A stretch of 25,688 bases of DNA. Source: a virus. Below the pieces are notes generated by a model. That model worked only from the letters and a program-made list of their open reading frames with translations, was not told where the DNA came from and did no database searches. The stretch spans positions 1-25,688 of IMG/VR virus record IMGVR_UViG_3300025876_001362. One strand, 5' to 3'. Numbering within the stretch: position 1 is the stretch's first letter; each line of letters starts with the position of its first letter. The translations under genes and the position numbers were made by a program. This document shows, piece after piece, positions 11,302 through 25,688 of the stretch.

Positions 11302-11401
11302 TGGCCAGACTTATGAATTTAAGGAAGGCCAAATTGAGGGCGACGGCCAAGCCTTTTACTCTAGATACCGCTATATGCGGGCTATAGTTATAGGGAAATG
11401 A
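11171..11401 (+). CDS. Outer-membrane lipoprotein spanin candidate (Rz1-like), embedded start
   Basis: A 76-residue protein with a textbook lipoprotein signal: MRFINSLLMAVLLPSC, with lipobox LPSC (13-16) and Cys16 as the lipidation site; the mature form would have about 61 residues. It starts inside the i-spanin candidate in the +1 frame, overlapping it by 131 bases, and extends 100 bases past its stop. The mature part is polar and lacks the Pro-rich stretch of lambda Rz1, apart from a PP at residues 37-38. Its end overlaps the amidase start (ATGA). The lipobox and the overlap are seen directly; the spanin role, joining inner and outer membranes at lysis, is inferred. It implies a host with an outer membrane. 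Confidence 0.6.
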   Translation: MRFINSLLMAVLLPSCGWNSSQSEKDVAVSRSALYDPPMITLIDGQTYEFKEGQIEGDGQAFYSRYRYMRAIVIGK

Positions 11402-12039
11402 AGAGAGTTGCTATAGATCCCGGGCACGGAGGAAGTGATGTAGGAGCGGTTTCTCCTTCTAATCTACACGAAGCCGACATGACTTTGGATGTGTGTAAGC
11501 GCATCCAGTCTCTGCTTGAGTCTCAAGTCGATGTCGTAATGACCCGTTCTGACGACTCTTATGTAAGCTTGGGAGAAAGGGCGGATATATGCAATACCGC
11601 TAAGTGTGATGTCTTTGTCTCTTATCATTTTAATGCCGCAACCACGATGCTGGCCAACGGTTGGGAAATATTTACAACGAAAAAAGACAACAACTCAGAC
11701 AAGCTAGCCACTTGCATAGGCAATTTCCATGCTGCCTTATTCCCTAACCAGCACGCCCGCCAAGACTGGTCAGATGGCGATCTTGACAAGGAGGCCAATT
11801 TCTCAGTAATCCGCAGGGCTAATTGCCCAGCTGTTCTAATGGAGGGGGAATTCATACACAACGCTCTAGGTGAATCACTTATAAGGAACCCGGCAAATAG
11901 AGAGAAGATGGCTATCGCTGTCGCAAATGGTGTGTTAAAATACCTCGGCTTGAAGCTTTTAGACGATTCAGTTGACTTTAACCTATCAGTAACACAGCGA
12001 TTAGACAGAATTGAAAATCACTTAGATCTCCCCACATAA
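11398..12039 (+). CDS. N-acetylmuramoyl-L-alanine amidase endolysin (Amidase_3)
   Basis: Zinc-dependent cell-wall hydrolase of 213 residues that cuts the bond between N-acetylmuramic acid and L-alanine of peptidoglycan. The Amidase_3 signatures and zinc ligands are visible: IDPGHGG with H10, HEAD with E25, SYHFNA with H77, and the catalytic VLMEGEF with E149. The catalytic domain fills residues 1 to about 185 and is followed by a short tail containing VTQRLDRIENHL. There is no signal peptide and no separate wall-binding domain, so release would depend on the holin. The start overlaps the lipoprotein stop by four bases, placing it in the middle of the lysis cassette. Confidence 0.9.
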   Translation: MKRVAIDPGHGGSDVGAVSPSNLHEADMTLDVCKRIQSLLESQVDVVMTRSDDSYVSLGERADICNTAKCDVFVSYHFNAATTMLANGWEIFTTKKDNNSDKLATCIGNFHAALFPNQHARQDWSDGDLDKEANFSVIRRANCPAVLMEGEFIHNALGESLIRNPANREKMAIAVANGVLKYLGLKLLDDSVDFNLSVTQRLDRIENHLDLPT

Positions 12040-12049
12040 CTCCCCTGCA

Positions 12050-12343
12050 ATGACCCTTACAATGATGCTCCCCAGCTTGGCAGACGTTTCCATGGATTTC
12101 TCTACCTGGAACGAAGCTGGGGGTTTGCTGGGCATGATATTTGCGGCGTTGTTCGTATTAATAGGAACTTTTCAATGGCACCTGAAAACTCAGGACAGAG
12201 AACATACTGAGACCGTGAAAAACATCCTTAATGAGGAGAGGGAAGAAAGAAAGCGGTTATCCCAAGAGCATAGAGTGACTTATGATAAGTTATCTGATGC
12301 AATCACTCAACTTAGCAAAAGCATTCTAGAATCAAGGAGATAA
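12050..12343 (+). CDS. Membrane anchor plus coiled-coil protein of the lysis cassette
   Basis: A 97-residue protein with a short N-terminal part, one strong membrane helix (about residues 24-43, GGLLGMIFAALFVLIGTFQW) and a long charged helix probably forming a coiled coil (about 48-92, rich in Glu, Arg and Lys). This layout is shared by XhlA/BhlA-like lysis accessory proteins and by some i-spanins, so it competes with the protein at 11068 for the spanin role. Ten bases separate it from the amidase stop. Methionines at residues 1, 5 and 6 are all possible starts and no Shine-Dalgarno sequence chooses among them. Its TAA is also the stop that bounds the open frame of the giant fibre downstream. 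Confidence 0.6.
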   Translation: MTLTMMLPSLADVSMDFSTWNEAGGLLGMIFAALFVLIGTFQWHLKTQDREHTETVKNILNEEREERKRLSQEHRVTYDKLSDAITQLSKSILESRR

Positions 12344-12373: not shown

Positions 12374-15300
12374 GTGAGCTCCTTTGATTTTATTGTAGAT
12401 GTTGAAAAGAAAAAGCTTGTAAGCTCTTTCTACGCCACTAATTCAGCAACTGCTCCAGCCGTTGTTTTTGGTGATCTTTCTGGCATCAAGGTTAGGCTCG
12501 TCGAGCCCAGCGAAAGCGACACCCTCGTCTGGGATTACGTCCCGCTTGAGGGATACTCAATCCGAGTTGGCATAGGGGCTTTAACAGACGAAAACCCGTC
12601 AGCCTATGTTGAACTAACCGAGGACATTCCTGCCCCGTCTGCATCAGTCACTAAAAAAAGGACCGGGGTTACCGACTCTGTCGGGGATTTGCAAAGAGCC
12701 GTTATATATAACGACCCGTATGAAGGCACGTTCCAGATCGGCGTCAATTCGGAGCAGACAGGACAAATAGGGATTTTCGATTCGGCGTCTGATATACAGG
12801 AAGCTATTGAATCCCTTTCTAGCATTGGGGCAGGCAACGTAACCGTTACAGGAAGCGCTTTGGATTTCTCTGTAGCATTCAACCGCAGCCTGGGAGAGGT
12901 CAGTTATCTTGAGGTATTTACAGACAACTTAATTGGCGTCTCAGGTAAGCAAGGAGAGCTTGATCTTAACGTCGGAGGAGTAGCAGCCCTGCTTGGTGAT
13001 TTGGGTAGCGTTTCGACTACTCTGGAAATCGTTAAGTTTGATACTGTTAAAAGCAGCTCAGAGACGATTTTGCAGCTGCCGATTACCCTTACTCAGGACG
13101 TTATCCCGGATGTCCCTCCGAGCATCACTCCAACCCAGACTTATGCCTCGTCTTCTCATCAGCACGTTATTGCGGATATCATTGACTACGAGGAAAACTC
13201 AAATGTCGTTCTTAAAACAGACGACAACTTGAATGGCAACAGTTTCTTTCTTCCAGGTATTTCATTAACTACCTCCCCTAGTAGCGACAAGGTCGTTTCT
13301 GCGGCTGGGATTAAATCGTATGTCGATAGCCAGTCTTCTCTTTCAAGTGACCCTTCCCCTACTCTTTCTTTCGATCTCGAACTAAACGACAATTCCATTA
13401 CCTCTTCTTCCGGGATCATTCGCTTGGATGGTGATGTGGATTTAGGCTCTTATGTTTTAAAAGGCGATCAAGAAGTCGATTTTACAAACAATACCGATGT
13501 ATTGACCTACTCGGCTGATACGGGATTTGTTAGCTTGCAGAGAGCTGTCGGAAAAGTTGCTTTTGGTGAAACCTCTCCTGAATCCCCTGAGAATGGCGAT
13601 GCTTGGTATGATACTAATGAAGGGCTTTTGTATGTCTATTATTCTGACGTAGATTCTTCTCAGTGGGTCACCGTATCTGCCACTGGAGAGCCTGGCGAAA
13701 TTGGCGCGACTGGTCCGATTGGCCCAACCGGCCCAACCGGAGCAACTGGTCCCGAGGGCCCTGAAGGCCCAACTGGTCCAACCGGGCCCAAAGGCGATAC
13801 AGGAGCAACCGGAGCAACTGGTTCAACTGGCGCAACTGGCGCAACTGGCCCTGAAGGTCCCGAAGGCCCAATCGGGGAAACAGGAGCCGGAGTCGAAGTT
13901 ATTGGTTCTGTTTCTGATTCGACATCTCTTGACCCTTCATACGTAGGTGCTGTCGGTGATATGTTCATTGCTCAAGATAACGGCTATGGTCATGTCTGGA
14001 ACGGCTCTGCTTGGGATGACGTCGGGCCAATTCAAGGCCCAAAAGGTGACCAAGGATCCTTAGGTCCAACTGGTCCTACTGGTCCATCTGGTCCAGTTGG
14101 CGCAACTGGGGGTTCAGGCCCACAGGGTCCGCAAGGAATTCAGGGCCCAAAAGGAAATACTGGATCGACAGGAGCAACTGGTTCAATCGGAGCCACTGGT
14201 TCACAGGGGCCTCAGGGAATTCAGGGCGTCAAGGGTAACGTTGGTCCGGTTGGCGCACAGGGCATTCAAGGTGAGCAGGGCATCGAAGGAGAAGGCGGCG
14301 GGTTTTCATACACATCGGCAGGCTCGGTTTTGCGGATTACTAATGATCTAGGGGCAGATTACTCTTTAAATGGCACAACTGTTACCATCTCTACTGATCC
14401 AGGAATCAATTCTGGAGGCGGCGGCGGTGGCGGAGGAATATCTATTGTAGGCTCGATATCTACAGAATCTTCACTTACTTCTTCCTACATCGGGGATATC
14501 GGCGATATGTTTATCGCTCAGGATACCGGTAATGGTCATGTCTGGGATGGTTTCGTATGGAACGATGTCGGGGCAATCAGGGGGCCTGCTGGCGCTAATG
14601 GTTCTAATGGTTCTGACGGATTACCAGGCATCAACGGTGCAGAAGGCCCCGCTGGTCTAACTGGTCCTGAGGGTCCTCGAGGCCTGGAGGGCCCTGAAGG
14701 CCCAACTGGCCCTCAAGGTGCTGCTGGAGTCAAGGGGGATACTGGCGCAACAGGAACACTCGGACCTGCTGGCCCCGAAGGCCCTGCTGGTCAAACTGGA
14801 GCAACTGGCCCCACTGGCCCAACCGGAGCAACCGGCTCAACTGGCTCAACTGGCCCTAAAGGTGATACAGGCCCTGCTGGAGCTGACGGAGCTACCGGAC
14901 CAGCTGGGATTGACGGAACTGGGGTAACTGTAGTCGGCTCTGTATCTTCTTCTTCTTTTTTAAACCCATCATACGCTGGATCTGTCGGTGATATGTTCAT
15001 TGCCCAGGATACTGGCTCTGGTCATGTCTGGGATGGATCTACTTGGAATAATGTTGGTCAAATACAGGGTCCCGCTGGAGTAACCGGACCGGTAGGTCCA
15101 ACTGGCCCCCAAGGTGTCGATGGACCTACCGGTCCTGCTGGTCCCGAAGGTCCCGAAGGTCCCGCTGGAGCTAATGGTCTTAGTGGCCTCACTGGACCCT
15201 CTGGCCCAACTGGTCCTGAAGGTCCCGAAGGCCCAACCGGCCCAACAGGGGAAACTGGCCCAGCTGGCCCAACTGGCGCAAAGGGCCCTGTTGGAGACAC

Positions 15301-17947
15301 GGGTTTAACTGGTCTTGCTGGGGCTCCAGGTCCTGAAGGCCCAGCTGGATTTGATGGCGACATCGGTCCCGCAGGACCTCAGGGAGAAACTGGCCCAACC
15401 GGCGCAACTGGCCCCGCAGGAACTAATGGCATTAATGGAGTTGATGGGCAGGATGGCACTGGGGTAACTATAATCGGCTCCGTCCCTAGTTCTTCAGATT
15501 TAGAGGCCTCTTTCGCTGATATTTGGCAGCAGCTTGGGGAAGAGTTTAATGGAACGGCTTCGGGAGATAAGTTTGGCTCAAGTATAGATGTCAGTTCCGA
15601 TGGCACTCGGATTGTTATCGGTTCACCTTTTGAAGGATCTGGTGAGGCGAGGGTTTATTCGTGGAACGGATCGTTTTGGTCACTCATGAATGGGGGGTTA
15701 TTGGATACATCCTACGTCTTCCTTGGGAACGGCGAAGACCTGAATCCGTATGTAATTGGCGCGGATGTTTCAATTAGTGGTGATGGAAACACTATAATGG
15801 TGGCTTGTTCTAATAGCATTTCTTCTGGAGATGGCCTTGTAGTTCGCCTTACATATGATGGTAATACTTGGACGCGCCAGGGTATGTGCGGTTTCGGTAG
15901 TCTTTATTACGGATTTACTTACGTTAAGCTTAGTGCAGACGGGGCAAAGACAATTACGATGATTAAGTCGCCCGGCAGCCCGCAACCTCGCGAGTGCATC
16001 ATGTTTGACACGGTTGATTTGGATACAAATTGCCGAGCCAATTCTAGAATTGATGACCCGCCCTCATTCACTGTGGATATGAGTGCTGATGCGGCTAACA
16101 TTAATGGTGACGGCACGGTTGTGGTTGTTAGTGAGAAGCTAGCAACTCGCAATGGTTTTACAAATGCCGGCGAAGTGAGAGCTTATAATGTTTCTGGCAC
16201 TACGGTTACGCAGCGCGGTCAGTTTATATCCGGAACAACCCAGGATATGAAGTTGGGGGAGGGTGTGGACGTAGATTCTTCTGGAAATAGGATCGCCATG
16301 ACTTGCGGATCAGGCGTTAGGGTTTATGATCTAACTGACGGGCTGTGGGTTCAGGCGGGGCTAGACATAGCTGTTGGGGTGGAAATCGCCACAGATTGTG
16401 TCCTTAGCAATGATGGTCTTAAATTGAGCGCACGTTTTGGGGCTGATGGCATTTACACTTTCGAGTGGATTGCAGGGGCGTGGGTGCAGGCAGGCGCGAA
16501 TTCGGTTACTTACGGCTCTGTTTATGAACTACCTAGCAACAGAGACAAGATCAGCTCTAGCTTGGCTATATCTGGCGATGGCTTGACTCTTGCTGTTGGA
16601 GATCCGCAAACCGGCAACGGCACTGTGGAGACATACCAATCAGGGGGAACGCTTCTCGGTTCAGTTGCTGATTTTGCTAGTCTTCCTGCTGAATCTTCAA
16701 TGGGAGACCTGTGGGTCACTCTGGACACAGATGATGGTTGGGTTAGTGACGGCGCAGGTGCTTGGACTAATATAGGGAGCGTAACTCAATATACTGGTGA
16801 TGCTGGCGATATGTTTATCGTTCAAGATACGGGCAACGGTTATGTCTGGAACGGCTCTGCTTGGGATGACGTCGGGCCAATTCAAGGTCCCGCTGGAACA
16901 CCTGGCACACCCGGAGCAACTGGTCCCACTGGCCCCACTGGCGCAACTGGAAATACTGGACAAACTGGTGCAAAAGGAAATCCCGGACAAACTGGAGCAA
17001 CTGGGGCAACTGGCCAAAAAGGCGATCAAGGACCAAGAGGCTTTGTCGGAGAAACCGGGCCTAAGGGAGATAAAGGCGATCAAGGTAATGTTGGATCTCA
17101 GGGGATTCAGGGAATACAAGGCTCTAAAGGCGCAAAAGGAGATCCTGGTCAAACTGGAGCAACCGGATCTGAAGGTCCCGCTGGAGCTGATGGCTCTCAA
17201 GGAGAAACCGGAGCTAAGGGCGATAAAGGAGATCCTGGTCAAACTGGAGCAACCGGACCTGAAGGTCCAAGTGGAGCTGACGGAACTGGAGTAATTATAG
17301 TCGGTTCTGTATCTTCTTCTTCTTCTTTAAACCCTTCATACTCTGGATCTGTCGGTGATATGTTTATCGCTCAAGATACGGGCAACGGTCATCTCTGGGA
17401 CGGATCTACTTGGGATGACGTAGGGCCAATTCAAGGGCCTGCTGGAGCAACCGGACCTGAAGGTCCCGCTGGAGCTGATGGCTCTCAAGGAGAAACCGGA
17501 GCTAAAGGCGATAAAGGAGATCAAGGCAATCAAGGCGTAATCGGACCTGAAGGTCCCGTTGGAGCTGTTGGCTCTCAAGGAGAAACCGGAGCTAAGGGCG
17601 ATAAAGGCGATCAAGGCAATCAAGGCGTAATCGGACCAGATGGCGTTAAGGGCGACAAGGGCGATCAAGGTGATGTCGGACCAGATGGCGTTAAGGGCGA
17701 TAAGGGTGATAAGGGGGATGTAGGATCAACTGGCCCCGCTGGCTCAACTGGATCAGCTGGAGCAGACAGCACAGTCCCTGGTCCAACAGGCCCCGAAGGT
17801 CCTCAAGGCCCCGAGGGTCCAGAAGGTCCAGAAGGTCCGCAAGGCTCTCTTGTGGGTGCTTACACGGTAAACGGAAGCATCTTGACTTTGTCCAATGTTT
17901 CTGCTGAGTTCTTGGTCACTGGGTCAACATTAAAAATCACTTTCTAA
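12374..17947 (+). CDS. Giant collagen-like tail fibre with inserted propeller-type domain
   Basis: Probable tail fibre or long adhesin (1857 aa). The GTG start at 12374 is the first usable initiator after the stop at 12341-12343. Residues 1 to about 435 are beta-rich, with SSSHQH (near 262), a phage-fibre type motif, and GDAWYD (near 408). Six collagen-like Gly-X-Y segments follow (about 13685-13882, 14042-14300, 14588-14914, 15074-15454, 16892-17281 and 17441-17843), rich in GPT, GAT, GPE and GDK triplets, giving a trimeric stalk. They are separated by copies of a roughly 53-residue module whose centre is [15 protein letters not shown]. The fourth copy is interrupted by about 425 residues (1048-1472) of propeller-type sequence. 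A beta motif resembling a trimer cap occurs near 14303-14400 and again at the C-terminus. Assignment as collagen-like phage fibre is firm; the receptor is unknown. Confidence 0.88.
13883..14041 (+). repeat. Fibre module copy 1
   Basis: First copy of the 53-residue module between Gly-X-Y stalks. It begins [10 protein letters not shown], contains [15 protein letters not shown] and ends DDVGPIQGP. Bases 13992-14037 are identical to 16842-16887 in copy 4. Confidence 0.85.
14432..14587 (+). repeat. Fibre module copy 2
   Basis: Second copy, preceded by an eight-glycine hinge. It begins [10 protein letters not shown], contains [15 protein letters not shown] and ends NDVGAIRGP. It is one residue shorter than copy 1. 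Confidence 0.85.
14915..15073 (+). repeat. Fibre module copy 3
   Basis: Third copy. It begins [10 protein letters not shown], contains [15 protein letters not shown] and ends NNVGQIQGP, then returns to Gly-X-Y sequence. Confidence 0.85.
15455..15514 (+). repeat. Fibre module copy 4, N-terminal half
   Basis: The first 20 residues of a module ([10 protein letters not shown], then SSSDLEASF) stop exactly where other copies continue to the GDMF core. Propeller-type sequence follows. The matching second half is at 16790-16891. Confidence 0.75.
15515..16789 (+). repeat. Propeller-type domain inserted in module copy 4
   Basis: These 1275 bases (425 codons, in frame) carry beta-propeller-like repeats: [11 protein letters not shown] opens the domain, and phrases such as [36 protein letters not shown] and [12 protein letters not shown] recur, each a strand pair with a DG turn. 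The opening resembles LWQQIGSDVNG in the gene at 20272. The end of the insert includes a divergent module copy at 16643-16783. Confidence 0.75.
16643..16783 (+). repeat. Divergent fibre module copy within the insert
   Basis: [19 protein letters not shown], then [18 protein letters not shown] and WTNIGSV align with the module outline but with many substitutions (GDLWVTLDT for GDMFIAQDT). Confidence 0.65.
16790..16891 (+). repeat. Fibre module copy 4, C-terminal half
   Basis: [20 protein letters not shown] through DDVGPIQGP supplies the half missing at 15455-15514, and the stalk resumes directly afterwards. Bases 16842-16887 are identical to part of copy 1. Confidence 0.8.
17282..17440 (+). 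repeat. Fibre module copy 5
   Basis: Fifth copy in the giant fibre. It begins [10 protein letters not shown], contains [15 protein letters not shown] and ends DDVGPIQGP. It lies between the two last collagen-like segments and is closest to copy 3 in its first half ([12 protein letters not shown] versus [12 protein letters not shown]). Confidence 0.85.
17461..17640 (+). repeat. Two tandem 90-bp units in the collagen-like stalk
   Basis: Bases 17461-17550 and 17551-17640 differ at only 5 of 90 positions. The first part of the unit also occurs at 17173-17229. Each unit encodes ten Gly-X-Y triplets. Such close copies imply recent duplication and make stalk length easy to change by recombination. 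Confidence 0.85.
17633..17722 (+). repeat. Two tandem 45-bp units ([11 protein letters not shown])
   Basis: Fifteen-residue units beginning [15 protein letters not shown] (17633-17677) and [15 protein letters not shown] (17678-17722) follow one another with few base changes. They add a Lys/Asp-rich stretch, a charge pattern known to stabilise prokaryotic collagen helices. Confidence 0.8.
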
Positions 17948-20269
17948 ATGTCTCAACAAATAGATCTATCTCAGATAGAAAACATCGTTGTCAACGGACA
18001 AAGTATCCGTGAGCTTATTCTTGAAAGTGAGCTCCTGTGGACGCGTGGAGCAGATCCCAGCTCGTTTTTAGCCAAAAACTACGTATATAGAGACGGCCCA
18101 CAAGAGAGCCCCAAATTCAATTCTGTAGCTCCTGTTGCTCCCGAATCAGTTCTTTCAGGTAGACCCTTTGCAAGCCCACAACCGCAGGGAAACGACTATA
18201 TAAGAATGTCAAAAGACGGGAAGGTGGCTTTAATCAATTTCGACTTCAATAAGCTTATTGTCTTGGAAAGGCCGAATACCGATGCAGCATGGGCTGTTCG
18301 TGGGGATGACCCATACCTAGATATAGGTGTCTCGGGGAACTACCTATACTCTGGGCAAGACACAACAGGATCAGACCCCAATAGCATCATCCTACTCGGT
18401 GATCCGATCGGCTACCTTAGAGATAGTGATCGCGGCAGGTATGAAAAAACCGTGTTTGATATCAACCATGATGCCAGCACTATAGCGGTCTTTAGACGCG
18501 ACCCAACCACCGTAGATGGCTATAATTCTGCCAGAGTCGATATCTACAACTGGAGCCCTTCCGCCAACGCCGAGTATTTACTAACCCAAAGCATCCCCCT
18601 AACGGTTGACCCAAATTTAAATTCAAACGCAGACGGAACCGAATTTTTGTTCAAACAGACTAGCTACAATCCACCGTTTCCTGAAGTATATTTGAGTTTT
18701 TGCCACACAAGAAATATGTTTGCTATTACTGGAAAAAATTCAGTCAAGGTATTTCAAGAGTTCGGGGGCAACGGGGGCGAGACACCGATTTTTGGCACGT
18801 TCTATCAAATGGGCGAAGACGTCCCTGTTGGTGACCGATTAATCCATGGCGTTTCTATGGCAGATGGCGTTGGGGATTTAAATACCCCGGAGGAAGCTGT
18901 TCTTGCGGTCACAAGTATTAACTTGGATCCTTTGACATATTACAAGTCTGGTCAAGTTGATGTGTTTAGGCTGGAGAGAAACGACAATATTTTTTCCTGG
19001 GTCAGAAAAGGGGACCCTTATAATTCAGGGGATGTTGGAATGAATTCATACGGTCTACATTCCACCAATACCACTGACTTATATTATGTCCCCCCACCGA
19101 TTGTTGAGACGCAGGATACTTACACTGGATCAGATAAATCCACCCGCTGGAGACACTACGCTCGGCCAACTCCTGGGTCGCCTAACACTAAGCTGTCGGT
19201 CCCTTATCCAGTTCCAGTCAAAGTTCCCACGTTAAGCAAAGATGGCAACCGTCTCCTCGCGGCAGACCCCTCTCATCGGCACGCGGCGGTTTATATACTT
19301 GAGCTCGGTGTGTACAGCACGAAACTTGCTTGGAAAGTCATATCTCAGGTCGATACCACTATAAACTCAGGTTATACGGACTCGACTCATACAATAGTTA
19401 GGCCTAGAGGGACGACGCTAGCAATCGCGGCTAGCGATGATTTATCTTTTTTTACCTGCTTAAATTACTCCGACAACGGCCCTTGGAGATTTAGACTGAT
19501 AAACAGCTTAGGAAACCCTACCTCAACCGGGAGTTCATACATTAACGCGGGAACTTGGGACGATCGAGTAGAAGCCATGCCGCACACATTCGCGGTAGTC
19601 TCTTATTTTCAAAATTCAGCTTCTGAATGGAGAAGAAATCAGCCAGTCAAAGCGGAAAACGACGACGCACTTGTCATTAATGGGAACAGTCAGCGATGGA
19701 ATAATGGGAACGTCTTACCAGGCGCTGCTATTCGGAGCTGGTGTCACGAAAATGACGAACGTCACGATGAAGAGCTAACCAACACCACCCTAAAAAGTGA
19801 AGCCCTCGCCTATAGAAACCCTTGGTGGCTATACAATGGTGGCGGCTTATGTTCCGATAGCACGGGAGAAAATATCGCGTTTATGTCTCGATACGCTGGC
19901 TCCGGAGAAAGTGCAAGGGGGGTGCTAACGGACTCAATTCTAAGAAGTTATAAAAATGAGCCTTGGTATTCACTGGTAGCTAACAGACTAACCGTCTTTG
20001 AAGGCGCACCTGTTACAATAACGCTGAAAACCAGAGGTGTAGCTAATGATACAGATCTCCCATATACTATTACAGGCATTGAAAATGCAGATATCCTAGA
20101 ACCTAAAACAGGCATTTTTACAGTTTCTAATAACAGAGCTTACGTCACAATTAACTCTGTAGCAGATTCTTCTTCAGAGGGGGCCCAAACCATGACGCTT
20201 TCTTTAGATAATGGAGAAGCTAATGTTGCAATAACTATTGTCGATTCATCAACCGATTCATCAACCTAA
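17948..20269 (+). CDS. Large propeller-like adhesin with C-terminal Calx-beta-like domain
   Basis: A 773-residue probable tail-associated receptor-binding protein that starts directly after the giant fibre stop. The first 30 residues (IDLSQIENIVVNGQSIREL, then LW) form a short motif shared with the next gene and likely anchor the protein to the tail. The middle, about 35-670, is strand-rich with propeller-like phrases (MSKDGKVALINFD, LSKDGNRLLAADP) and no catalytic motif. Residues 679-773 resemble a Calx-beta or immunoglobulin-like domain (LTVFEGAPVTITLK, LPYTITGI, AYVTINSVADSSSEG, then TMTLSL and VAITIVD), a type common at the ends of phage tail proteins. The C-terminus is Ser/Thr-rich. Function is inferred from domain style and position. 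Confidence 0.72.
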   Translation: MSQQIDLSQIENIVVNGQSIRELILESELLWTRGADPSSFLAKNYVYRDGPQESPKFNSVAPVAPESVLSGRPFASPQPQGNDYIRMSKDGKVALINFDFNKLIVLERPNTDAAWAVRGDDPYLDIGVSGNYLYSGQDTTGSDPNSIILLGDPIGYLRDSDRGRYEKTVFDINHDASTIAVFRRDPTTVDGYNSARVDIYNWSPSANAEYLLTQSIPLTVDPNLNSNADGTEFLFKQTSYNPPFPEVYLSFCHTRNMFAITGKNSVKVFQEFGGNGGETPIFGTFYQMGEDVPVGDRLIHGVSMADGVGDLNTPEEAVLAVTSINLDPLTYYKSGQVDVFRLERNDNIFSWVRKGDPYNSGDVGMNSYGLHSTNTTDLYYVPPPIVETQDTYTGSDKSTRWRHYARPTPGSPNTKLSVPYPVPVKVPTLSKDGNRLLAADPSHRHAAVYILELGVYSTKLAWKVISQVDTTINSGYTDSTHTIVRPRGTTLAIAASDDLSFFTCLNYSDNGPWRFRLINSLGNPTSTGSSYINAGTWDDRVEAMPHTFAVVSYFQNSASEWRRNQPVKAENDDALVINGNSQRWNNGNVLPGAAIRSWCHENDERHDEELTNTTLKSEALAYRNPWWLYNGGGLCSDSTGENIAFMSRYAGSGESARGVLTDSILRSYKNEPWYSLVANRLTVFEGAPVTITLKTRGVANDTDLPYTITGIENADILEPKTGIFTVSNNRAYVTINSVADSSSEGAQTMTLSLDNGEANVAITIVDSSTDSST

Positions 20270-20271
20270 TC

Positions 20272-22695
20272 ATGGGAACAATTCAAGAAATAGACTTTAG
20301 CAATGTCGAATCCGTAGTCAAAGATGGAATCAGCTTAACTGAATTGGTCGTCGACGGCGTGACCATTTGGAACTCCGCTTACCTCGGTAAGTTGTGGCAG
20401 CAGATCGGATCAGATGTAAATGGCGGCGATAATGGTGGCGAGCTTGCATATAGAGATCTAGCTGGCTTTTCTGTTTCCATAAGCAAATCAGGAACCAGAG
20501 TCGCTGTTTCAAGCCCTAGTTACGTCGTTAATGAGCCTTTAGTCGAAAGGCCCAACCGTTTTAGTGACAATAGCACAGGACAAAACGTTTTAGGTAGCGT
20601 AACTGTTTATGACTGGAACGGCACAAATTGGTCTCCTATGGAGATAGCTGATTCACGGCACGTCTCTTTCAAGGATAACAATGGGCTTACTACAGGATTC
20701 GGTCTTAGCGCTGAGTTAGATTACCAAAACGAGCAGCGTTACAATCCATTTAGGCTTAATCCTAGCGTTGCTCATTTTTGGAACCTTCAGGCTTATAGGG
20801 CCGGCCAATATACATACCCCTCAAGCGGCATTGTATCTAGCTATGGTGGTTCGAACGATAACAAAACCCACCCTTCTCTTCTATTCGGTCAGGCTATGGA
20901 TATGAGTGATGATGGTGACCATCTCGTAATTGCTTCTAGAGGAAGTCACTCGGCTCATATTAACCCGGAACGACAGAGAGACAGGGAGTGCGGTTACTTG
21001 TCTTATTGGAAAGCCGAGGATATAGACGGCACTAAAAAATGGGCCCTTAAAGGGCTCGCTTATGATTTCAACTACATCTCAGAAGCTAATAGTTTTGTTT
21101 CTCCATTCGAAGAACCACAGTATCACAGCAGCAACCCGGGCGTAGGGGAAACGGTAAAAATAAGCCGTGATGGCTCTGTTATCGCTGTGGTCAATTCTAA
21201 TGGGCAAGCATGGGTAGTGAAGTCGGAAACTGGGAGCCAATCTTTGACTTTAGACTCAGGTGAAGTCAGCTCCAGTGAAATTTATCATGGTTTGCATCCA
21301 GACTTACCTTTGGCAACCTGGGAAACAGGAGAGATGAAGCCCGCACATAGCTTATCAGCCAAAACAATGGTAAAGTTCAAGCTGGCTAATTACTCTACAA
21401 GTGTTGATGGAAGCAATAGCAGTAGCCCGTATTCCGAGGCGATGGCAGAAGCCAATTATAACATCATAGACCCCCAGTCATCGCAGCACAAATATATAGC
21501 CTCTGTTGTCGGCTGGGAAGATGGTGATTTGATTCCTCTCCAAAAAAGGGGATCTTATCGCGGCATCAATTATTTCATAGCTTACGCTCGTTTGAGCGAT
21601 GGAACCATTCAGGCAATGAGGTTCCCATTGAACAGCACCTCCGAGTTCACTGATATTTCTTACGATTTCGAAGAACCTTATGCGGCCCCGAGCCACCATG
21701 TGTTATCTGAATCGGGCGTTCGGGACATTGCCATCAATGGTGATGGTCGTATTTGCGTTGTTAGCAGGAACGTTACGAGAGGCGGGTTACCCAACTCTGG
21801 AGAGGTGTCGGTCTATAGAACTGCATTTGGGGAATATAAAAACGAAGACGGTAGTTTAAGAAGTTTTGACTACCCCACTAAAGTAGGCCTGAGTATTAAC
21901 GCAGAGCGTTACAGTGGATTTGAAGAAGACTCCCTCTTTGGTGATCGACTAGCTATGGACGGTTCTGGGCTAACGTTCGCCGGGACAATATACAAATCAG
22001 GAAAGCTTTATGCTAGAACCTACAAGCTGGGGGCAAGCGGTTCCGGGAACCCCGACACCGACGCAGGCAGGCTTGGGGTAGACACTTACACCCAAGTCGG
22101 CAACGATATACCTTTGTTTGTAGCGGAGTTCGGCAATACCCAACAAATAACCTCTTTTGAAATGAGCGCTGATGGGCTAACTATTAGCGCTCAGATTGAC
22201 GGCTATATTTGGCCAAGTCCCTACAAGAATTCTGACTTCTCGAACGTCTACATTTCTACTTATGCCACTGGGGTTATGCTCCCTTATGATACGAACGAGC
22301 CCGCAACGCAGTCCATTTCCGCGTCAACTGCGACACTTGTTTATCGATGGAGCGGATCTAGCTGGGGGCTCCTTGGCCGAGAAATAAAATATGCGAAATC
22401 TTTTGATGGGGTTAGCTCTATTGAAGCTAAGTCTGGAAACGTCTTTTATAATGGTCAAAGTGTCAGCCAACTCCCTGTCGTCGGGGACAGAATTAGAATT
22501 GGACCAAATACAACTGTATTTCCAGCAAGAGTTGACTCTTCTGCCCCAATTAATACCGGCAGTATTCTTTCGGCTTTAAACCCGCGCAACACAAGTGACA
22601 TTTCTGAAGATGGCAGTGTCGTTTGCTCAGGCAAACCTTTAAACGACATGAGCGGCTTCGGCTCAGGCGCACACTCTACCTTTGAACTAAGATAA
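20272..22695 (+). CDS. Large propeller-like adhesin
   Basis: An 807-residue probable tail-associated adhesin. The N-terminal EIDFSNVESVV plus ISLTELVVDGVTIW parallels the start of the preceding gene, and propeller-like sequence opens at about residue 40 with KLWQQIGSDVNGGDNGG and continues with repeated strand pairs (ISKSGTRVAVSSP, MSDDGDHLVIASRG, ISRDGSVIAVVNSNG, MDGSGLTFAGTIYKSG, MSADGLTISAQIDG). These DG-turn phrases are like those in the insert of the giant fibre. The end, from about residue 695, has a distinct segment (SIEAKSGNVFYNGQSV) and finishes with another propeller-like phrase (ISEDGSVVCSGKP). There is no enzyme motif. It starts two bases after the previous stop; the next gene follows by four bases. 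Confidence 0.72.
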   Translation: MGTIQEIDFSNVESVVKDGISLTELVVDGVTIWNSAYLGKLWQQIGSDVNGGDNGGELAYRDLAGFSVSISKSGTRVAVSSPSYVVNEPLVERPNRFSDNSTGQNVLGSVTVYDWNGTNWSPMEIADSRHVSFKDNNGLTTGFGLSAELDYQNEQRYNPFRLNPSVAHFWNLQAYRAGQYTYPSSGIVSSYGGSNDNKTHPSLLFGQAMDMSDDGDHLVIASRGSHSAHINPERQRDRECGYLSYWKAEDIDGTKKWALKGLAYDFNYISEANSFVSPFEEPQYHSSNPGVGETVKISRDGSVIAVVNSNGQAWVVKSETGSQSLTLDSGEVSSSEIYHGLHPDLPLATWETGEMKPAHSLSAKTMVKFKLANYSTSVDGSNSSSPYSEAMAEANYNIIDPQSSQHKYIASVVGWEDGDLIPLQKRGSYRGINYFIAYARLSDGTIQAMRFPLNSTSEFTDISYDFEEPYAAPSHHVLSESGVRDIAINGDGRICVVSRNVTRGGLPNSGEVSVYRTAFGEYKNEDGSLRSFDYPTKVGLSINAERYSGFEEDSLFGDRLAMDGSGLTFAGTIYKSGKLYARTYKLGASGSGNPDTDAGRLGVDTYTQVGNDIPLFVAEFGNTQQITSFEMSADGLTISAQIDGYIWPSPYKNSDFSNVYISTYATGVMLPYDTNEPATQSISASTATLVYRWSGSSWGLLGREIKYAKSFDGVSSIEAKSGNVFYNGQSVSQLPVVGDRIRIGPNTTVFPARVDSSAPINTGSILSALNPRNTSDISEDGSVVCSGKPLNDMSGFGSGAHSTFELR

Positions 22696-22699
22696 TATT

Positions 22700-23461
22700 A
22701 TGGCACTAGATTTCCCAATAAACCCATCTGTAAACGATACTCATGAATATGAGTCTAAGTCCTGGATCTTCAACGGTAAAGCGTGGGTCTTTAACCCTGC
22801 GATAGGCGCTACAGGTCCGATGGGCCCTGCTGGACCAGCAGGTCAAGGTATCAGGATCGCTGGAACAGTCGCTACAAGTGCTGATTTAGAAACCCCTTAT
22901 TCTGGAACTAGTGGCGATATGTTTATCGCCCAAGACACTGGGAATGGTCACGTCTGGAATGAGCTCATTCAACTTGCAGACGACTTGTTTTCTGGTAATA
23001 CTTGGACTGATATCGGTCCTATTCGTGGTCCAGCAGGTCCAGCAGGCGACTCATGGAATAATATGCCTTCAGAGATGAGCTCAGTCTTAGCTAGTGATGG
23101 CTCAGGGGATGGAGTTACTGACCTGATGACCCTTATGGGCACAGGATCAAGCTCAACCAATAACGAAAGCAACAACTTCACAGCAACACTCACGCAGGAC
23201 ATTTTTAGCATCAAGATCATCGGGATACAGTCTGGCATTAATGGTGAAGATTACATTGGCTCAAGTGGTCTTATAGAAGTAACGCAAGACGCAACAGGAG
23301 GCCATGTAATCTCTCCACAACATCCGCTAAATATCGTGATGTCGGGAGATCCCGTTAATATGTCACTGATCACTCCAGAAACGGGGGCAGGCACGATTGG
23401 CTGGTATAAATACGGGGCTGATTCGGCGGCACTTTATCTATACTTCAGCGATGTAACTTAA
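22700..23461 (+). CDS. Short tail fibre with collagen-like linkers and a module copy
   Basis: A 253-residue protein. Residues 1-34 (FPINPSVNDTHEYESKSW, then GKAWVFNPA) match the style of N-terminal attachment domains of phage fibres. A short Gly-X-Y run follows (GATGPMGPAGPAGQG). Residues 48-111 are another copy of the [15 protein letters not shown] module, carrying an 11-residue extra piece (ELIQLADDLFS) after GHVWN. After a second mini-stalk (GPAGPAG), the C-terminal 135 residues are a beta-rich head with Ser/Asn-rich start. No catalytic motif is seen. It probably forms a short trimeric fibre alongside the giant one. Neighbouring genes and shared module make the tail assignment good; the ligand is unknown. 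Confidence 0.75.
   Translation: MALDFPINPSVNDTHEYESKSWIFNGKAWVFNPAIGATGPMGPAGPAGQGIRIAGTVATSADLETPYSGTSGDMFIAQDTGNGHVWNELIQLADDLFSGNTWTDIGPIRGPAGPAGDSWNNMPSEMSSVLASDGSGDGVTDLMTLMGTGSSSTNNESNNFTATLTQDIFSIKIIGIQSGINGEDYIGSSGLIEVTQDATGGHVISPQHPLNIVMSGDPVNMSLITPETGAGTIGWYKYGADSAALYLYFSDVT
22841..23032 (+). repeat. Fibre module copy in a second gene, with 33-bp insertion
   Basis: The module of the giant fibre recurs here ([34 protein letters not shown]). Bases 22961-22993, encoding ELIQLADDLFS, have no counterpart in the other copies. Confidence 0.8.
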
Positions 23462-23468
23462 TAATACA

Positions 23469-23963
23469 ATGAATTACCAACTAATCAAACTTAGCCCCCT
23501 AAAAGTTCAGAGAAGCTTAAATGGGCTTCCTTCATCAATTACTAGAACTGAAGGTCGAGCGGTCCCTTCTGTTCCATACGGATACAAATATGTAGAAGAC
23601 TTCCCTCTCCCTGAAGCGCCTGCTGATGATGGGTTCTTTTGGTCAAGAGTTTTAACTGAAGACGCTTATAATTGGGCGCAAGCCCCTCTTCCTACTACGG
23701 GATGGCATTCCCAACCGGCTTGGCGTGTCCGCGCTGTTGTTAAGGCTACTCCATTTGGTGCTGAGACTCTAATGGACGCGGTAATTACCGCGATAGCTTC
23801 TATAACTGACCCTCTAGAGCAATCTGTAGCAGAAGAGGCTTTCTTTGGTGGCAATGTCCTCGAGCGAAACTCTGCACTTCTTCTTAGTATGGCGGCTTCA
23901 ATCCCGTTGACTGATGCGGAACTAGACACAATATTCCAGCAAGCTGACGCCATTGAGGTATGA
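23469..23963 (+). CDS. Probable fibre-associated small protein (chaperone-like)
   Basis: A 164-residue protein. The first half has a beta-like start and an aromatic segment (DDGFFWSRVLTEDAYNWAQ). The second half, about 80-164, is helical: WRVRAVVKATPFGAETLMDAV, then AEEAFFGGNVLERNSALL and LTDAELDTIFQQADAI. This pattern of an ALK-type helix, a W/F..G..ERNS turn and a final LT..(Q/E)LD.(L/I)F..A is one I associate with small proteins encoded beside phage tail fibres, some thought to help fibre folding. The role is inference. It starts 7 bases after the short fibre and overlaps the next gene by four bases (ATGA). Confidence 0.6.
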   Translation: MNYQLIKLSPLKVQRSLNGLPSSITRTEGRAVPSVPYGYKYVEDFPLPEAPADDGFFWSRVLTEDAYNWAQAPLPTTGWHSQPAWRVRAVVKATPFGAETLMDAVITAIASITDPLEQSVAEEAFFGGNVLERNSALLLSMAASIPLTDAELDTIFQQADAIEV

Positions 23964-25688
23964 ACTTCCCCCTAGAGTTAATAGGGTCAGAAGTAAACAC
24001 CCAAGAGAATGTCCTGATCAATGATGACTTTGGGCCTAGCTCAGATTTGATCATAGGGACGTTTTTCCGTGCTAAAACTCGTAATGCAATAGAGCCAGGG
24101 GCAAACACTACCTGGATTAAAGGGACTGGCCAATGGGAAATCACCTCATCTGAATTGCAAAACCTTTCTTCAGTTAATGGTGTTGAGGGGGAATCTGGCG
24201 TAGCTATTGTTGTTGATACATCAACAGTCCCTGAAACTAACGAGTTAAACCTAAGCTTAACATACACTTTGGGAGATCCTAATGAGACTCTTTATTTCCA
24301 TTTATGGGGAGTAGTTAAGACAGCAGGGGAGCTTGTGGAAACGGGGAATGGCAATGAAGGCAATGATACACTTGCACATCTTGGTGAAAATACAGCCGTA
24401 AATACTAACGGGAAATTAACGGACTATAGTCCTCAGAATACCACGGGCTTACCCGATGTATTAGCTGTTTACGACTTATATACTGGTTCTCCTTCGATCC
24501 CCTATGCAGGGTGGGAGGCCCTTAACCCTACCTTTTCGGTTACTGGCGGTTCAGGCGAATATACCCGCATACTTAGCCTGGCTGATCATAGCATAAATAG
24601 TCTTGATCAATACGATTACCTCTTGTTTGGAATGACCCGTAATGTAGCTGGGGCAAGTTCGTCTGCAAGGATTTCTAATGTGGAGCTTACTTATTCTACC
24701 ATTGCCCCTCCTCCTCCTCCTCCTTCTGGTGAGGAGAATCCTACTCTTTTCATACCTGAACAAACATTTTACGCTGGCGACCCCACACCCACATTGAGCG
24801 ACCAAGTTGAGATCAGTTTCATGGGCCAACGGAACGGTAATTACGCTTCAAATCCGGACGCGAGATACCTTTCCTATGAAGTCTCCGACACCTCCGAATT
24901 ACCTGCTGGGTATCCTGAAGGCCCTGGTGGGTTCGGTGATAATTTCCAAAACACCGGCGGCGTAATGCACTTAAATAACTTACCTTTTACAACTGGCGTT
25001 ATTAGAGGTTACCTTGGTCCAGATAGTCACTTAAATAGCCCTTACAACATTACGGTCATTGTAAGGTCGCGTAAATCTGGTGATGTAACTAGCAGTTATC
25101 TTGAAGGTTCTTACACGTTTGTTCTGAACGTTATCTCCAATGAGCTTTGGGAGATTGATTCTCCTGCTTCCCTCGGGTTTGCTGATTCATCGGGTTTAAT
25201 AACAAGCGACAGCTTTGGCACACCGTCCGGAGCGCGGGATAATTGGACCACTTGGGATAAAACTAGAGGAGTGAACACAAGTGACGGAACTGCGTCTGGT
25301 TATGAAGACAGCAATACAGAAAAGTATCATTTTATGTCAGCAGACTCTCTCTGTATTGGGGTTCGTTGCGCTAGGTCCGAAACGGGAGCATATGAGTCTC
25401 AAAACTTCATCACCCAGAGGGCTCCGCTTGGCGATTTCACGTTTGGAATAGCTGTGTATCGTCGTCCCGATTTGGACTCTGCTTGGAGCTATGCGTTTCA
25501 CACGACTGATCTCGTTAGTTCTAATGTAGTCTGCGCTCTAAGTGGTGACGGCAGCTATCTAGTTATATCACACCCCAATGATGTAATGGACGTCTATTCT
25601 TGGAATGGGTCCAGTTATGTTCAGCATGGCAATTCTATATCCCTCAAGAACGGTTGGTCCGGGACGCAAGCCAATTTCAATTTGAATT
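23960..25688 (+). CDS. Large adhesin or tail protein, 3' partial
   Basis: The frame is open from ATG 23960 to the end of the window (576 codons, no stop), so the gene continues beyond. The start overlaps the previous stop as ATGA. Residues 1 to about 245 are beta-rich and Asn/Thr-rich with a carbohydrate-binding-like feel (DDFGPSS, GQWEITSS, LSLTYTL). A Pro6 linker stands at about 249-255. A second beta-rich region follows, and near the visible end propeller-like phrases appear (LSGDGSYLVISHPNDVMDVYSWNG), as in the three other large adhesins. No catalytic motif is visible. Most likely another receptor-recognition protein of the tail; the missing 3' part may hold the rest of a propeller. Confidence 0.7.
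   Translation, partial: MNFPLELIGSEVNTQENVLINDDFGPSSDLIIGTFFRAKTRNAIEPGANTTWIKGTGQWEITSSELQNLSSVNGVEGESGVAIVVDTSTVPETNELNLSLTYTLGDPNETLYFHLWGVVKTAGELVETGNGNEGNDTLAHLGENTAVNTNGKLTDYSPQNTTGLPDVLAVYDLYTGSPSIPYAGWEALNPTFSVTGGSGEYTRILSLADHSINSLDQYDYLLFGMTRNVAGASSSARISNVELTYSTIAPPPPPPSGEENPTLFIPEQTFYAGDPTPTLSDQVEISFMGQRNGNYASNPDARYLSYEVSDTSELPAGYPEGPGGFGDNFQNTGGVMHLNNLPFTTGVIRGYLGPDSHLNSPYNITVIVRSRKSGDVTSSYLEGSYTFVLNVISNELWEIDSPASLGFADSSGLITSDSFGTPSGARDNWTTWDKTRGVNTSDGTASGYEDSNTEKYHFMSADSLCIGVRCARSETGAYESQNFITQRAPLGDFTFGIAVYRRPDLDSAWSYAFHTTDLVSSNVVCALSGDGSYLVISHPNDVMDVYSWNGSSYVQHGNSISLKNGWSGTQANFNLN

Follow-up and report, generated by a model that had tools for sequence, protein, structure and literature searches.

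In an uncultured phage, one of the small recurring modules of a collagen-like tail fibre holds, inserted in frame into a surface loop, a complete seven-bladed beta-propeller, as judged from sequence and predicted fold. The window, i.e. the whole stretch of DNA analysed here, is a viral contig of 25,688 bases (IMGVR_UViG_3300025876_001362). As the best explanation, with a probability of about 0.62, we propose that the fourth module of this fibre is a trimeric stalk clamp which displays three propellers from an exposed loop. The relevant features are:

12374..17947, plus strand: collagen-like tail fibre gene (open reading frame, 1857 aa, GTG start)
13892..14041, plus strand: module copy 1, intact (alignment and HMM)
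14438..14587, plus strand: module copy 2, intact (alignment and HMM)
14924..15073, plus strand: module copy 3, intact (alignment and HMM; AF2 mean pLDDT 92.5)
15464..15514, plus strand: N-terminal half of module copy 4, comprising strand 1 and the turn (raises the score of the C half by 14 bits)
15515..16789, plus strand: in-frame insert of 425 aa (reading frame)
15518..16645, plus strand: predicted seven-bladed FG-GAP_2/integrin-type beta-propeller with an N-terminal closing strand (alignment, AF2, Foldseek, VIA)
16646..16783, plus strand: type-B (divergent) module at the end of the insert (48.2 bits against the module profile)
16790..16891, plus strand: module copy 4, C-terminal half, strands 2-4 (57.7 bits alone)
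17291..17440, plus strand: module copy 5, intact (alignment and HMM)
20272..22695, plus strand: independent protein bearing seven propeller blades and distantly related to the insert (alignment)
22850..23032, plus strand: module of a 253-aa fibre protein encoded nearby, its strand3-strand4 loop being longer by an insertion of 11 residues

The fibre protein matched Pfam Collagen (1.2e-88) in 14 stretches. An N-terminal region is followed by collagen tracts alternating with five copies of a module of about 50 aa. By the Pfam match and the tail gene context the Gly-X-Y tracts lie within a phage structural protein. A sister contig of 60,387 bases (IMGVR_UViG_3300025621_000007) covers this region, differs from the window at 4 of the 25,610 bases compared and encodes a 100% identical fibre protein. 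There, the fibre gene is located downstream of terminase, capsid-like and tape-measure-like genes; the open reading frames resemble large terminase, major capsid, tape measure and tail proteins, assignments which, terminase excepted, were made by reading the sequences. IMG/VR searches for close relatives of the insert, the propeller protein and the fibre N-terminus returned the sister contig only, and cultured phages searched with the insert gave no match. The arrangement is known from this one fibre, represented by two near-identical contigs. Directly upstream of the fibre gene (11398-12343) come an N-acetylmuramoyl-L-alanine amidase-like protein and, after it, one of 97 aa that contains a hydrophobic stretch; the two may be a lysis pair. 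A tape-measure-like protein of 1771 aa (L012, 2052-7367) contains several near-repeated charged coiled-coil segments.

Copy 3 shares 64-82% identity with module copies 1, 2 and 5. In copy 4 the module breaks off after DLEASF (15514) and continues, in the same reading frame, from YTGDAGDMF (16790). A reading of the sequence alone had claimed this split with 425 in-frame residues in between; coordinates and frame were checked and confirmed. The halves were scored against a profile built from 432 module sequences from which those of the window were left out. Joined in silico, they reached 71.7 bits compared with 57.7 bits for the C half alone, i.e. the N half of 17 residues contributed 14 bits. 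The intact copies 3 and 5 scored lower with the same profile (65.4 and 66.9 bits). When the N half was replaced by 17-mers drawn from the insert and the fibre N-terminus, 5 of 829 such controls attained 71.7 bits, and all five were the N half of the type-B module. The score of the joined halves and the control comparison demonstrated that the split is not due to chance.

Insert residues are numbered below according to the 479-residue segment 15455-16891. Over residues 22-397 the segment aligned blade by blade with 55 bacterial and viral FG-GAP_2 propellers of seven blades, the identity being about 24-33%. AF2, supplied with these 55 relatives, placed blade strands at 43-77, 99-147, 155-185, 213-259, 271-300, 312-345 and 369-396, the last blade being closed by strand 24-26; residues 22-397 were mostly predicted with confidence, with a few weak loops. 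Foldseek matches were seven-bladed propellers (E 1e-13). In VIA-align, integrin alphaV was at the top (Z 29.6, 347 aligned residues, rmsd 3.5, residues 22-401) with nearby rows tied. The alignment and the AF2 strands thus show seven tandem blades and VIA a propeller fold, and what had been described as propeller-like is supported as a complete, self-closing propeller. Because the first strand closes the last blade, entry and exit of the propeller should be adjacent, as deduced from strand order. Probably the propeller serves as a receptor-binding head. The Pfam family FG-GAP_2 (PF14312) scored 17.1 bits on the insert, below the gathering cut-off of 23, and integrin-like calcium loops (DxDxDG), searched as D.[DN].[DN]G, were absent from the entire insert. 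A weak Plk4_PB1 match below cut-off was ignored. None of the other viral propeller loci had a propeller within a module, and a literature search on FG-GAP together with phage tail fibres yielded nothing relevant.

Towards its end the insert contains a divergent module copy, as had been noticed before. This type-B module shares 63% identity with a type-B module that stands alone in another collagen fibre (L015), which also has stand-alone A-type modules.

How unusual is an interrupted module? Profile searches yielded 352 distinct copies at 214 loci, 290 of full length (355 distinct domain envelopes corresponding to 352 distinct aligned sequences). The consensus matched 384 deposited phage records, PHROG 3904 (tail fibre) matched 11 of 11 module members tested, and Pfam contained no credible family match. 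Gordonia phage modules which matched over residues 1-43 only were suspected to carry inserts; actually they have a variant strand 4 and no insertion. Modelled alone, without insert, an intact copy gave a confident fold (pLDDT 92.5) with a strand at 7-12, a turn at 15-17, a loop at 18-27 and strands at 28-32, 37-41 and 46-51. These data support a module that folds independently, is shared by hundreds of phage fibres and is nearly always intact. The insertion point of copy 4 coincides with loop 18-27 between the turn and strand 2, that is, between secondary-structure elements. Natural insertions were present after model position 15 in 69 of the 352 distinct copies, and after positions 35, 36 and 38 in 26, 4 and 56. 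The loop opened in copy 4 is one of the two most indel-prone loops of the module.

The nearest solved structures were Geobacillus virus E2 ORF18 (Z 5.7), the trimerisation domains of human collagens XV and XVIII, a four-stranded fold with one short helix (Z 4.3-4.8, TM 0.57-0.60), and the Mtd N-terminus (Z 3.1-3.4), all with modest Z values. The PDB matches comprised collagen XV/XVIII trimerisation and phage spike or receptor-binding domains, the viral matches being collagen-repeat fibres. In PDB sequence comparisons the module profile also hit villin and designed propellers, but these were short repeat matches and were dropped. The human domains (3n3f, 3hsh) resemble the module in size, strand order and position beside collagen helices, yet a sequence relation was not detectable: the modules did not match PF20010, for which the human domain as a control gave 2.7e-22, and the hhalign probability was 0.1%. 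Homology at the sequence level with the trimerisation domain of human collagen XVIII is not supported, and the likeness is structural only. Most likely the module is a trimer clamp holding three chains.

Taken together, sequence and predicted fold suggest the following arrangement. The protein would form a trimeric tail fibre, either a side fibre or an adhesin, with a stalk of collagen triple helices, in which the small four-stranded modules most likely bind the three chains together at intervals. In module 4, each chain would exit via the exposed loop that links the first turn to strand 2, build a seven-bladed integrin-type propeller, continue into the type-B module and then return to complete module 4. 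As the propeller is predicted to close on its own N-terminal strand, with entry and exit adjacent, it could hang from the loop and leave the host module unbroken. Three propellers would surround the stalk part-way along the fibre and probably bind a host surface glycan or protein, besides the separate propeller proteins encoded downstream. A precedent for the geometry is the Klebsiella phage K1 lyase, where a collagen XVIII-like fold forms a trimer with solvent-exposed helices (PMC8822698); by analogy, a loop following the helix would lie outside.

The sequence-only reading had gone further and regarded the module as a docking site for adhesin heads along a collagen-like stalk. A search for modules broken by at least 75 residues identified, besides the window, a single locus (L289, a 112-kb contig), from a phage unrelated to that of the window. 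In its first module 190 residues are inserted in the strand3-strand4 loop, and the returning segment outperformed 179 of 179 controls. The second module has a related insert of 189 residues (37% identical); here support for the return strand was weaker, with 1 of 181 controls equally good. Both inserts have weak ConA/LamG-like Pfam matches below cut-off. This fibre, with two modules broken by ConA-like domains of about 190 aa (L289, 8089-10149; L377 from 156, 1079 aa), adjoins a 964-aa fibre bearing three intact modules. The 11-residue insertion in the module at 22850-23032 sits in the loop type which holds the lectin-like inserts in L289. In its weaker form, i.e. that the module accepts adhesin heads, the docking claim thus stands, carried by the ConA-like inserts in the strand3-strand4 loop. 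The loop of copy 4 is no site of recurrent docking: among the 352 distinct copies from 214 loci a second large insert between turn and strand 2 was not encountered.

Tentatively, the widespread trimer module of phage collagen fibres may be a socket, two exposed loops of which take up whole adhesin domains such as propellers and lectin-like folds and position heads along the stalk and not at the tip alone; this generalises from two fibres and two loops. A broader explanation, beyond the best one, which covers the window fibre only, is that phages repeatedly put different adhesin heads into exposed loops and in this way diversify their receptor range. Two unrelated fibres with different domains (propeller and ConA-like) in two loops of one module family are consistent with this, as are the occurrence of the module in the 384 phage records and the short strand3-strand4 insertion in the second fibre protein of the window. 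Nevertheless, large inserts were found in these two fibres only, in a sampling of copies that favoured intact modules, and none recurs at the same loop. We consider such a general practice rather doubtful.

Alternatively, copy 4 may have ceased to be a single domain. By this account, propeller and type-B module would have arrived by recombination as a cassette that left behind two module remnants; the true clamp at this point would then be the type-B module, alone or with leftover strands, and the propeller would merely be in series. The type-B module is complete and closely resembles copies that stand alone. Combining its N half with the A-type C half gave 75.5 bits, which means that other pairings are possible and complicates the topology. 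NIGSV at its end resembles a strand-1 motif; however, with TNIGSVTQ as strand 1 the C half gained only 0.5 bit (58.2 compared with 57.7). In addition, MAFFT alignments meant to lay intact modules across the split favoured placing their N halves on the type-B module. Consequently, the split-copy structure was modelled with propeller rows and no module rows; the resulting low pLDDT in both module halves speaks neither for nor against one domain. A relative of the same fibre with an empty copy 4, as the earlier reading had suggested looking for, was not found. Against remnants, however, argues that the two halves of copy 4 are well preserved and jointly outscore intact copies 3 and 5, that the N half is better than all controls except those of type B, and that the break is in a natural indel loop. 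Decay of copy 4 into remnants thus appears unlikely, and we prefer a reassembled module 4 with the propeller extending from its loop.

A misassembly across the collagen repeats, which can mislead assemblers, is highly improbable as the origin of the insert because the junctions are in frame and outside the repeats, the base composition of the insert matches that of its neighbours and the longer second contig has the same fibre with few base differences, although related samples may be the source of both contigs.

Elements of the proposed fibre are known. Collagen-like phage tail fibres, i.e. PHROG 3904 and related proteins, EPclB and Tals, equally have small beta modules that break the collagen stalk and adhesin domains elsewhere in the same chain, and they share the trimeric design that is proposed for the window fibre. 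In EPclB of an EHEC prophage, Pf2 is located between two collagen stretches (PMC3368898), and streptococcal and lactococcal Tals have, in the available text, 3-beta domains between collagen linkers (PMC9437275, PMC9692632). As far as that text goes, adhesin or CBM domains of Tals are arranged in series between the linkers, whereas in the window fibre the propeller is inside a module. Evolved Dits carry a CBM within a galectin-domain loop (PMC9437275, PMC9692632). As proposed for the window fibre, the receptor-binding domain extends from a loop of a siphophage tail domain that is structural and oligomeric; yet the host domain there is the hexameric Dit and the insert a different one, whereas here the host is a 50-aa fibre unit, and the two are compared solely as a way of working. 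The K1 lyase combines a collagen XVIII-like N-terminal trimer domain with a protruding 'rider' domain (PMC8822698), but it is an enzymatic tail spike and the rider is on the beta-helix, not in the N-terminal domain. Fibres of extracellular injection systems (eCIS), which are phage-tail-derived, share with the window fibre a propeller and a collagen-like shaft; they differ by a TNFR-like end, and the accessible part of the source does not describe insertion in a module (PMC12923769). Hence, receptor-binding domains inside structural domains and propeller-plus-collagen fibres are both known already, as far as these sources extend (PMC9437275, PMC9692632, PMC12923769). The combination of collagen and propeller was, in the same accessible part, called not yet known from phages (PMC12923769), and the window fibre is a testable candidate for it. 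Possibly this is a simple route for phages to equip a collagen stalk with additional receptor-binding heads along its length and leave the stalk undisturbed; the small module concerned occurs in hundreds of phage genomes.

Downstream of the fibre gene other propeller-like proteins are encoded. The start of the insert had been said to resemble the protein at 20272-22695, and indeed the two are 30% identical over 112 aa (E 2e-4) and both have seven blades. This protein and the one at 17948-20269 are large and have a similar N-terminal motif of about 30 residues, IDFSNVESVVKDGISLTELVVDGVTIW and IDLSQIENIVVNGQSIRELILESELLW, respectively, perhaps a shared attachment adaptor; in 17948-20269 only a single propeller blade is recognisable. 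A long tail-region protein at 23960-25687 (complete with 930 aa in L013, 1666-4458) contains propeller-like repeats towards its C-terminal part.
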